Shown here: piece by piece, positions 634-3,107 of the stretch
How the letters are laid out: every line of letters begins with the position of its first letter
Position numbering within the stretch: position 1 is the stretch's first letter
Origin: SAR202 cluster bacterium
GTDB taxonomy: Bacteria; Chloroflexota; Dehalococcoidia; Lucifugimonadales; UBA2962
Length of the DNA stretch: 64,000 nucleotides
Assembly: GCA_009392275.1 (NCBI GenBank)
Contig: VFGV01000005.1
Coordinates: 1-64,000, forward strand
Direction of reading: 5' to 3'
Program-made: the position numbers and the translations under genes
Notes under the pieces: model-generated
What the model saw: only the letters and a program-made list of their open reading frames with translations
The model's database searches: none
Told to the model about the DNA's origin: nothing

Positions 634-1773
634 TTAACTCTCAGACTTCATATTTTTGATCAATTCATTTTTCATACCAAATAACAATCTAACCCATTTA
701 ATTCTCTTAACAATTTCGTATGCAAGGAAGCTTACAGCGTATGTACAAGCCAATACAATAATAAGCTTGAAAGAGGCCGTAATAGATAAAGGGAAGATAA
801 GGCTACAAAAGAAAAATTGTATTGGCATATGAACGATATAAACCGGATATACAGCCGAGCTCATATAACTTAATAACTTGGATGGCTTATTTAGGAATGT
901 GGCTCCAAGACCTAAGGCTGCTAGCATCCAATTTGCTGATTCAAAACCAGTTAACAAGTTAACAACTACCCTAGATGATATCAATTCAGAATCGTAGTTA
1001 TAAACTCTAAATCCATACAGACATGCCGCTAAAAGTAAAGTTGCCCACTTTACCTCTTGTACTGCGTTCCAGAACTCTTGCTTAAGAGAAACCAGTACAA
1101 AACCGTTAAAGAAACACACTAGACCTAGCAAAAGGCCGTGAAGCGAGAATGCAAATGCAGGGAATATCTCAGGATTAACTACAACTGACTCTAAGGCTAT
1201 CAGTGATGCAAATAATGGAATGATTCTAAAAGGCTTTGATATTACTTTTTTTAAACATATGTAGAATTTGTTTTCTGGATTTTTTTTTAAAAAATTAAAT
1301 ACATAAATAAATATCAAAACATAAAAAAAGATATTTGCTAAGAACCACAAGTGGCCGGGATGTGAACCATAGAATTGGTCCTTTCCGTAATATTGATTAA
1401 ATATGTAAATATAAATCGGAACAACACAAAGTGTTCCAAAAACCAATGGCAATACAATTCGTAGCGCGCGATCCGAGAGTAATGCTGCCCACTCACGACG
1501 TTCCATTGCAAATCTAAGGCCCATACCTGAAACAAGGAACAATATAGGTATACGCCATATATTTATCAAATTCATTGCAAAATGCCAAAAGGGTTCTAAA
1601 GATTCTTTATTCTCGATAAAAAATATATCAGTTGCCCATGGCTGAAATGAAACAGCGGTGTGGTACAAAATCAATAACATCAAGGCAATTACTCGTATCG
1701 AGTCTACATCGTATCTTCTATGTGAAAAATCGTTTTTCAATCTAATCAAAAACCTCTTGCCTAAGTTGAACAT
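634..1773 (-). CDS. Acyltransferase family 3 membrane protein (OpgC-like)
   Basis: A 379-residue polytopic protein with about ten hydrophobic segments. The family 3 signature is in the first helix: YDVDSIRVIALMLLILYH, with R27 and H38 in the conserved Arg-x10-His arrangement. Members O-acylate surface glycans, lipids or glucans from the membrane, and the 'glucans biosynthesis protein C' group is the closest in feel; the substrate cannot be told from sequence. There is no Shine-Dalgarno before the ATG at 1773. The start lies only four bases from the decayed tRNA-Val copy (1778-1822), so its upstream region was probably altered by whatever made that duplication. Confidence 0.82.
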   Translation of the reverse strand: MFNLGKRFLIRLKNDFSHRRYDVDSIRVIALMLLILYHTAVSFQPWATDIFFIENKESLEPFWHFAMNLINIWRIPILFLVSGMGLRFAMERREWAALLSDRALRIVLPLVFGTLCVVPIYIYIFNQYYGKDQFYGSHPGHLWFLANIFFYVLIFIYVFNFLKKNPENKFYICLKKVISKPFRIIPLFASLIALESVVVNPEIFPAFAFSLHGLLLGLVCFFNGFVLVSLKQEFWNAVQEVKWATLLLAACLYGFRVYNYDSELISSRVVVNLLTGFESANWMLAALGLGATFLNKPSKLLSYMSSAVYPVYIVHMPIQFFFCSLIFPLSITASFKLIIVLACTYAVSFLAYEIVKRIKWVRLLFGMKNELIKNMKSES

Positions 1774-1777
1774 TCAA

Positions 1778-1822
1778 TAGGAGGCAGCACTGGAATCAAT
1801 CCAGTGACCTCTGCGATGTCAA
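1778..1822 (-). repeat. Decayed copy of the 3' half of tRNA-Val (candidate att site)
   Basis: On the minus strand these 45 nt match the intact tRNA-Val from its anticodon loop to its CCA end at 37 positions. A 22-bp block is identical (1801-1822 versus 3054-3075). Similarity stops abruptly at the anticodon loop. Most mismatches read C to T on the tRNA-like strand and fall in the T loop and acceptor stem, so the copy cannot fold as a tRNA. Confidence 0.75.
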
Positions 1823-2240: not shown

Positions 2241-2519
2241 ATGGATGAACTAGTGGATAGATTCGAGTTAGCCCGCAATCGTGTTGATAGCTTCTTCATG
2301 GATTTAATGAATGGAACTAATCAAGAATTTGTAGATGAAGCATTTAAAGTTTTGGATTTAAATAAAGCTGACGTCGAAAATAAATTAATACGCATCAACG
2401 AGGAAGTTAATCCATTCAATCCTGAACAAATGGGGCATAATGCGAGTAAAAAAATCATATACAAAGCAATACTAACTATGATGTGGGAAGATAAAATGGC
2501 AGATAACACAAGTGATTAG
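2241..2519 (+). CDS. Hypothetical protein, small and acidic
   Basis: A 92-residue product I do not recognise. It is rich in Asp/Glu and in predicted helix, with no signal peptide, membrane segment, Cys or known motif. The middle reads like amphipathic helices (EAFKVLDLNKADVENKLIRI). The ATG at 2241 has a weak purine-rich ribosome site about 10 nt upstream. It precedes the QueF-like gene on the same strand by 68 bp and lies in the tRNA-Val-bounded segment, so the two may have arrived together. A non-coding origin is possible but the frame looks protein-like. Confidence 0.55.
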   Translation: MDELVDRFELARNRVDSFFMDLMNGTNQEFVDEAFKVLDLNKADVENKLIRINEEVNPFNPEQMGHNASKKIIYKAILTMMWEDKMADNTSD

Positions 2520-2557: not shown

Positions 2558-2587
2558 TATAATATATGCATACAAAGGAGATTAAAA
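2558..2587 (+). promoter_or_regulatory. -10 element and ribosome site for the QueF-like gene
   Basis: TATAAT at 2558-2563 is followed by AAGGAG at 2575-2580, seven bases before a TTG start. No good -35 is seen. The strong Shine-Dalgarno decides the TTG start at 2588 over the internal ATG at 2612. Confidence 0.4.
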
Positions 2588-2977
2588 TTGGCGAACTGGA
2601 GTGAAATCAATATGCTGAAAAGCATAAAAAACCCATCAAGCGAAGCATATGAAATCAAACTTCATGCTCCTGAGATTACATTCATCGGTGCCTCAGAGCA
2701 ACCTGATTTCGCAACAGCAGATATTTTGTTTTATCCAAATAGTAAAGTTGTGGAATTAAAATCATTAAAACAATATTTTTATCAATTTAGAGATAAACAC
2801 ATTTCTTATGAACGAATCATAAATACAGTTTATGATGATTTAATGGAAAAATATTCTCCAAAACGTATCCGAATAGTTATGAAGTTTAATGTTAGAGGAG
2901 GAATAACTAGTCAACTGACAATAGATTCAGACTGGGGTGTTCGTGGCGGTAAAGAGGAATTTAAGGATTGGCTATAA
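2588..2977 (+). CDS. QueF-like T-fold protein lacking the catalytic Cys and His
   Basis: The 129-residue product matches the short (Bacillus-type) preQ0 reductase QueF along its length: QPDFA at residues 38-42, the QueF motif ELKSLKQYFYQFRD at 56-69, and FNVRGGI near 100-106. QueF reduces 7-cyano-7-deazaguanine to preQ1 through a covalent Cys thioimide. Here the SLCP-type Cys is replaced by Gly/Ala (residues 34-35) and the whole protein has no cysteine. The residue aligned to the catalytic His is Tyr74. The conserved Asp (D40) and the substrate-binding Glu (E75) remain. It may bind a deazapurine or pterin without reducing it, or run other chemistry. A TTG start is backed by AAGGAG. No other queuosine gene is nearby. 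Confidence 0.75.
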   Translation: MANWSEINMLKSIKNPSSEAYEIKLHAPEITFIGASEQPDFATADILFYPNSKVVELKSLKQYFYQFRDKHISYERIINTVYDDLMEKYSPKRIRIVMKFNVRGGITSQLTIDSDWGVRGGKEEFKDWL

Positions 2978-2996: not shown

Positions 2997-3019
2997 ACTT
3001 AAAACACCCGAATTTAAGT
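2997..3019. terminator. Possible weak bidirectional hairpin
   Basis: ACTTAAA (2997-3003) and TTTAAGT (3013-3019) form a 7-bp stem with a 9-nt loop between the convergent QueF-like gene and tRNA-Val. The stem has little GC and no clear T-tract, so termination is only a guess. Confidence 0.25.
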
Positions 3020-3030
3020 GCAAAATTCAA

Positions 3031-3107
3031 TGGTGGGCGGTACTGGAGTCGAACCAGTGACCTCTGCGATGTCAACGCAGCGCTCTGGGCCTCTGAGCTA
3101 ACCGCCC
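3031..3107 (-). tRNA. tRNA-Val(GAC)
   Basis: The cloverleaf is complete. The acceptor stem pairs GGGCGGT with ACCGCCC, the anticodon loop TTGACAT gives anticodon GAC, and the T arm is ACTGG-TTCGACT-CCAGT. The discriminator is A at 3034 and CCA is encoded at 3031-3033. It lies 49 bp downstream of rpoC on the same strand and may be read through from it. Its 3' half is duplicated at 1778-1822. Confidence 0.95.

Follow-up and report, generated by a model that had tools for sequence, protein, structure and literature searches.

QueF, the unimodular preQ0 nitrile reductase, works through a Cys-bound thioimide and then reduces the imine, consuming two NADPH; its NADPH-binding QueF motif is defined as E(S/L)K(S/A)hK(L/Y)(Y/F/W), and sequences without Cys55 are not counted as QueF (PMC5372742). 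Asp62 has been described as the general acid of this enzyme (PMC5372742, PMC5485725), and the related QueF-L is likewise defined by a conserved Cys that forms a thioimide (PMC5485725). The methylene-tetrahydropterin reductases compared in one study activate their substrate to a 5-iminium cation and transfer one hydride to it, a step that mycobacterial Mfr performs directly, without flavin (PMC11094777). In the open-access literature, no prior report joining QueF with MetF/MTHFR, folate T-folds, or the S-box was found.

The DNA analyzed here is a 64,000-nucleotide stretch of contig VFGV01000005.1 from a SAR202 cluster bacterium (hereafter the window), in which an intact frame with a TTG start encodes a protein of 129 amino acids (Table 1). 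The protein matched the Pfam QueF family (1.4e-22) and scored 99 bits against TIGR03139, above the equivalog cut-off; the top match in a PDB sequence search was B. subtilis QueF, and a Pfam profile search of the protein gave no PF02219 (MetF/MTHFR) match. Its AlphaFold model (pLDDT 90, pTM 0.85) was a T-fold, for which QueF was the best structural match (4F8B/4FGC, TM 0.82, 35% identity), followed by bimodular QueF, QueF-L, and GTP cyclohydrolase I. Judged from sequence and predicted structure, the product is a genuine QueF homologue with a T-fold.

Table 1. Features of the QueF-Y locus in the window.
Feature	Position	Strand	Basis
QueF-Y gene, QueF paralogue without Cys55; proposed methylene-THF reductase (NADPH-dependent)	2588..2977	+	sequence, profile, structure comparison
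Ribosome-binding site AGGAG, 7 nt 5' of the TTG start	2576..2580	+	sequence
Gly34 codon, where QueF has its nucleophile Cys55	2687..2689	+	alignment: Gly in 44/44 of the family, Cys in 16/16 canonical
Asp40 codon, equivalent of the QueF general acid Asp62, invariant; proposed activator of the methylene bridge (to the iminium)	2705..2707	+	alignment
ELKSLKQYF, QueF motif, NADPH-binding helix, kept	2753..2779	+	alignment and motif definition (PMC5372742)
Glu75 codon, equivalent of the substrate-anchoring Glu97, invariant	2810..2812	+	alignment
tRNA-Val (gac), island integration site	3031..3107	-	tRNA search of the window
Decayed, incomplete copy of the 3' part of tRNA-Val, far island boundary	1762..1822		pairs with 3015-3075, 61 bp, 82%
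92-aa ORF directly upstream of QueF-Y	2241..2519	+	ORF call

Transfer to B. subtilis QueF numbering was exact and placed Cys55 at Gly34, Asp62 at Asp40, Glu78 at Glu56, His96 at Tyr74, and Glu97 at Glu75. A sequence-only reading of this ORF had pointed to QPDFA, ELKSLK, and the substrate Glu (E75) and to the lack of any cysteine in the protein, all of which can be read from the translation. Its claim that Cys-based preQ0 reduction should be impossible for this protein also holds, Cys55 being replaced by Gly34. A frame error hiding a Cys was excluded by three further SAR202 MAG copies with 84–93% identity, found in one search, and by the dN/dS of the window copy against its SAR202 relatives (0.06–0.08), which shows that this copy is under strong purifying selection. 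The same reading had placed Tyr74 at the catalytic His. The alignment with His96 was confirmed, but Tyr74 was rejected as a family signature, since Tyr occupies this position in 10 of the 16 canonical, Cys-containing QueFs sampled. His96, supposedly catalytic, is thus not universal among QueFs themselves.

The search that returned the SAR202 copies also yielded four Bacteroidota copies (62–63% identity), and a separate search yielded five viral contigs with copies (62–66% identity). Other homologues without the catalytic Cys then proved numerous: a profile search detected over 80 viral loci (contigs of up to 289 kb), and genome searches raised the number of Bacteroidota carriers to 18. A wider Bacteroidota sample of 395 genomes held two carriers only, both among those already found, and the scores in this sample were sharply bimodal (≥229 versus ≤88 bits). 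The search of phage isolates and of plasmids gave no close member (≤44% identity, as for canonical QueF). We coined the name QueF-Y for this family.

To define the family residues, 44 QueF-Y members were compared with 16 canonical QueFs. The Cys55 position was Gly in 44/44 QueF-Y and in 0/16 canonical sequences, within a loop one residue shorter in QueF-Y; the equivalents of Asp62 and Glu97 (D40 and E75) were invariant, and the E-L-K-S-h-K-x-Y motif was kept in all 44. Residues specific to QueF-Y were F32, S73, R76, Y89, R95, D113, D115, and W116, and the window copy has nearly all the family-conserved residues. The emphasis of the sequence-only reading on a cysteine-free protein therefore stands for the catalytic Cys, which is gone throughout the family, but not for cysteine as such, which is wholly absent from 13/44 members while the rest keep a non-catalytic Cys somewhere. 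In the tree, QueF-Y and canonical QueF formed two groups with 100/100 support and long branches, so that the homologues are not simply conventional QueFs. These comparisons mark Cys55→Gly as the diagnostic change of QueF-Y and point to a widespread, previously unnoticed family of ocean viruses and bacteria.

QueF-Y adjoined methionine-cycle genes in several of its carriers. In two Flavobacteriales-type MAGs (L006 and L007), the order was metH1-QueF-Y-metH2, where metH1 encodes the homocysteine methyltransferase and metH2 the pterin, B12, and activation domains of a split MetH. In other Bacteroidota (L161, L164, and L165), QueF-Y stood between a Cys/Met PLP enzyme of the MetY/MetB type and homoserine dehydrogenase (hom), and in L157 and L167 it was divergent from an adjoining metH. 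The near neighbors in 60 dereplicated viral loci included MetK (9), AhcY (7), and ferredoxin (6), and in most viral carriers methionine genes were not beside QueF-Y. On a 273-kb viral contig (L077 8956–15244), MetK, QueF-Y, a full-length cobalamin-dependent MetH, and AhcY were consecutive, a gene row for a nearly complete viral SAM-regeneration cycle. tRNA genes lay near QueF-Y in some viral loci and were absent in many, and several viral contigs carried tmRNA genes encoding tag peptides of their own (L045 13613–13977, L051 11644–11945, and L052 7745–8057).

S-box switches normally control methionine and SAM genes. An S-box (SAM) riboswitch was located 5' of QueF-Y transcription units, in the same direction, at seven Bacteroidota loci (L006, L007, L161, L163, L164, L165, and L166), and in L166 it was immediately 5' of QueF-Y. 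No riboswitch was found in the window; the methionine context and the S-box were seen in the Bacteroidota and viral relatives.

All 18 Bacteroidota carriers possessed MetH. A search for MetF detected it in 7 of them and not in the other 11, and MetE was absent from all 11, so that these MetH-only carriers need methyl-THF. In one Bacteroidota order represented by 249 genomes (QueF-Y in 15, MetF in 219, and MetH in 229), MetF was absent from 10 of the 15 MetH-positive genomes that carry QueF-Y and from 11 of the 214 that do not (Fisher p = 9e-9, not phylogeny-corrected). A Saprospiraceae carrier outside this sample was also without MetF, and the MetF-less genome G373 is assembled in megabase contigs, making assembly gaps an unlikely cause of the missing gene there. 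The MetF-less carriers fell on about six branches of the MetH tree with weak support, and an independent-pairs test of MetF loss, with only 2 pairs available, was without power. The combination of missing MetF and present MetH was found in one Bacteroidota order and not in SAR202; an early idea that MetF was lost in every carrier was rejected, since 7/18 Bacteroidota keep MetF and SAR202 has an MTHFR homologue. The most telling point was the arrangement of the genes themselves. In eight MetF-positive relatives, chosen for close metF and metH and hence showing that the arrangement exists rather than its frequency, metF and metH were divergent with the S-box on the metH side. In the MetF-less G318 and G364, QueF-Y occupied exactly the place of metF, divergent from an adjoining full-length metH with the S-box between.

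We consider it likely that QueF-Y, a T-fold family descended from QueF but distinct from it, acts as a 5,10-methylene-tetrahydrofolate reductase that uses NADPH and no flavin, a MetF analogue that would supply 5-methyl-THF for methionine and SAM synthesis. The gene context suggests the substrate, and the retained residues suggest the chemistry. Just as preQ0 is anchored by Glu97 in QueF, the 2-amino-4-oxo ring of the pterin would be anchored by Glu75; NADPH would bind at the QueF-motif helix (E56-F64), and the glutamate tail could be held by the extra Arg residues R76, R93, and R95. Asp40, the counterpart of the general acid Asp62, would open the methylene bridge, producing the 5-iminium cation, and one hydride from NADPH would then yield the N5-methyl, in parallel with the last step of QueF, from imine to amine. 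Since an iminium substrate is already reducible, Cys55, which converts the nitrile into the thioimide, would be dispensable. QueF-Y keeps the needs of the second half of the QueF reaction (NADPH motif, acid, and ring-anchoring Glu) and has lost only that of the first; because folate is the one 2-amino-4-oxo ligand in the methionine cycle, this points to a methylene-THF reductase. The earlier suggestion of a pterin binder or an enzyme with new chemistry fits such an NADPH/pterin-type pocket in a methionine-folate context.

An accessory role in the methionine cycle, as a folate-binding chaperone, a sensor, or an aid in reactivating MetH, with an unrecognized enzyme providing the MetF activity, would suit the loss of the Cys, the seven Bacteroidota carriers in which MetF stands alongside QueF-Y, and the ferredoxin gene adjoining it in six viral loci. 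We nevertheless regard this as unlikely, because retention of the acid, the substrate Glu, and the NADPH motif together argues for catalysis, QueF-Y in G318 and G364 fills the metF slot rather than an added one, and nothing would then supply methyl-THF in the 11 MetH-only carriers. The same pocket logic would serve an enzyme that reduces another folate or pterin, replacing dihydrofolate reductase or dihydropterin reductase, and DHFR_1 was indeed detected in 0/4 SAR202 genomes. However, DHFR_1 was found in 16/18 Bacteroidota carriers, which disfavors DHFR replacement, and the S-box together with the linkage to metH, metY, metK, and ahcY fits methyl-THF supply rather than dihydrofolate reduction; this function appears improbable.

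A continued part in queuosine or 7-deazaguanine metabolism, of tRNA or phage DNA and with altered chemistry, is suggested by the QueF homology and by the use of deazaguanines by phages. True QueC was absent from 18/18 Bacteroidota carriers and from 25/26 viral records, where matches of 20–30 bits reflected short motif similarity (real QueC scores ~190–200 bits), and preQ0 is therefore not made there unless imported. The sole exception among the viral records was a genuine QueC of 200 bits in G565 (the record of L075, C1:171145–171777), which counts in favor of such a role. The SAR202 source genome, for its part, has a separate canonical QueF with its Cys in a queF-queC-queE operon. On the QueC absence and this separate QueF, a queuosine or deazaguanine role, and with it the deazapurine role first suggested for the window protein, was rejected; given also the missing catalytic Cys, it seems very unlikely. 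Still less weight can be given to the view that the SAR202 copy is a decaying, functionless remnant of a mobile element: the small AT-rich island and the degraded partial tRNA copy would agree with it, but the frame is open in four MAGs at the low dN/dS given above, and nearly all the family-conserved residues are retained.

The tRNA-Val gene and its decayed partial copy resemble an att duplication and enclose the 1.3-kb AT-rich segment with QueF-Y, in agreement with the tRNA-bounded segment recognized at the outset. The small gene of unknown kind noted beside QueF-Y corresponds to the 92-aa ORF, for which domain and profile searches found no family; a homologue with 33% identity lies near QueF-Y in another SAR202 MAG (L005 1659–1892, within 1617–2021). 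In L003 (5803–6390), QueF-Y is located at this tRNA with its orientation reversed. The order in L004 (4321–6390) is tRNA, inserted gene, second partial copy, QueF-Y, the cargo being a FAD-oxidoreductase-like gene. These partial tRNA copies and differing cargo identify the tRNA-Val next to rpoC as a SAR202 integration hotspot. The nearest sequences outside SAR202 in the tree were viral, and SAR202 probably acquired QueF-Y, perhaps from a virus, via an element that integrates at tRNA-Val.

In SAR202, the MetH activation domain PF02965 was absent, core-MetE-like genes were present, and the MTHFR homologue was of the MetVF type, beside RACo, a corrinoid protein, and UroD-like methyltransferases. 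The L216 cluster (G000:C4:91500-102500) contains RACo, a MetV-like PF12225 protein, MTHFR, a corrinoid protein, a pterin methyltransferase, and two UroD-like proteins, a set suggestive of methyl-group catabolism. The SAR202 MetVF-type MTHFR is probably catabolic and would find its complement in an anabolic NADPH enzyme. Because SAR202 is without MetH and its MTHFR is a MetVF in a methyl-corrinoid cluster, the role of QueF-Y is least certain there, where it is suggested by the family as a whole.

More broadly, we favor, with reasonable confidence, a new non-barrel class of methylene-tetrahydropterin reductases: a T-fold of ~130 residues, descended from a nitrile reductase that lost its nucleophile, which replaces MetF in several bacterial lineages and is carried by marine viruses, at least once in a viral methionine/SAM-regeneration operon. 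If true, methionine and SAM synthesis would gain an MTHFR that differs from the barrel-fold enzymes described to date, the missing metF in MetH-dependent bacteria would be accounted for, and a nitrile reductase transferring four electrons would have become, through loss of its catalytic Cys, an iminium reductase transferring two. QueF-Y is labeled "preQ(1) synthase" by current models, as the TIGR03139 score of the window protein illustrates, and viral "queF" auxiliary genes may consequently be mistaken for genes of DNA or tRNA modification while boosting the methyl cycle.

Compared with B. subtilis QueF (YkvM), the window protein shares T-fold homology (at the structural-alignment identity given above), the QueF motif, Asp62, and Glu97, but it lacks Cys55, has the shorter loop and the family-specific residues, and lies outside the canonical clade; QueF-Y also has a C-terminal RGGxExFxDW tail, and, G565 excepted for QueC, its carriers outside SAR202 are without queuosine genes. 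Like QueF-L, the archaeosine synthase of Pyrobaculum calidifontis (PDB 5JYX; TM 0.65–0.72), it is a T-fold relative of QueF with apparently diverted chemistry; unlike QueF-L, which has the catalytic Cys and thioimide, QueF-Y has lost the Cys by which that group is defined and kept the NADPH motif. GTP cyclohydrolase I (FolE) is a Zn hydrolase that shares the T-fold and the binding of a guanine- or pterin-type ring, but it has no QueF motif and only 11–15% identity. With flavin-dependent MetF/MTHFR, QueF-Y shares the proposed reaction, the genetic neighborhood, and S-box control, and with mycobacterial Mfr the flavin-free direct hydride route proposed here; those enzymes are (beta/alpha)8 barrels (PMC11094777), whereas the window protein is a T-fold of 129 amino acids with no detectable sequence relation to them.
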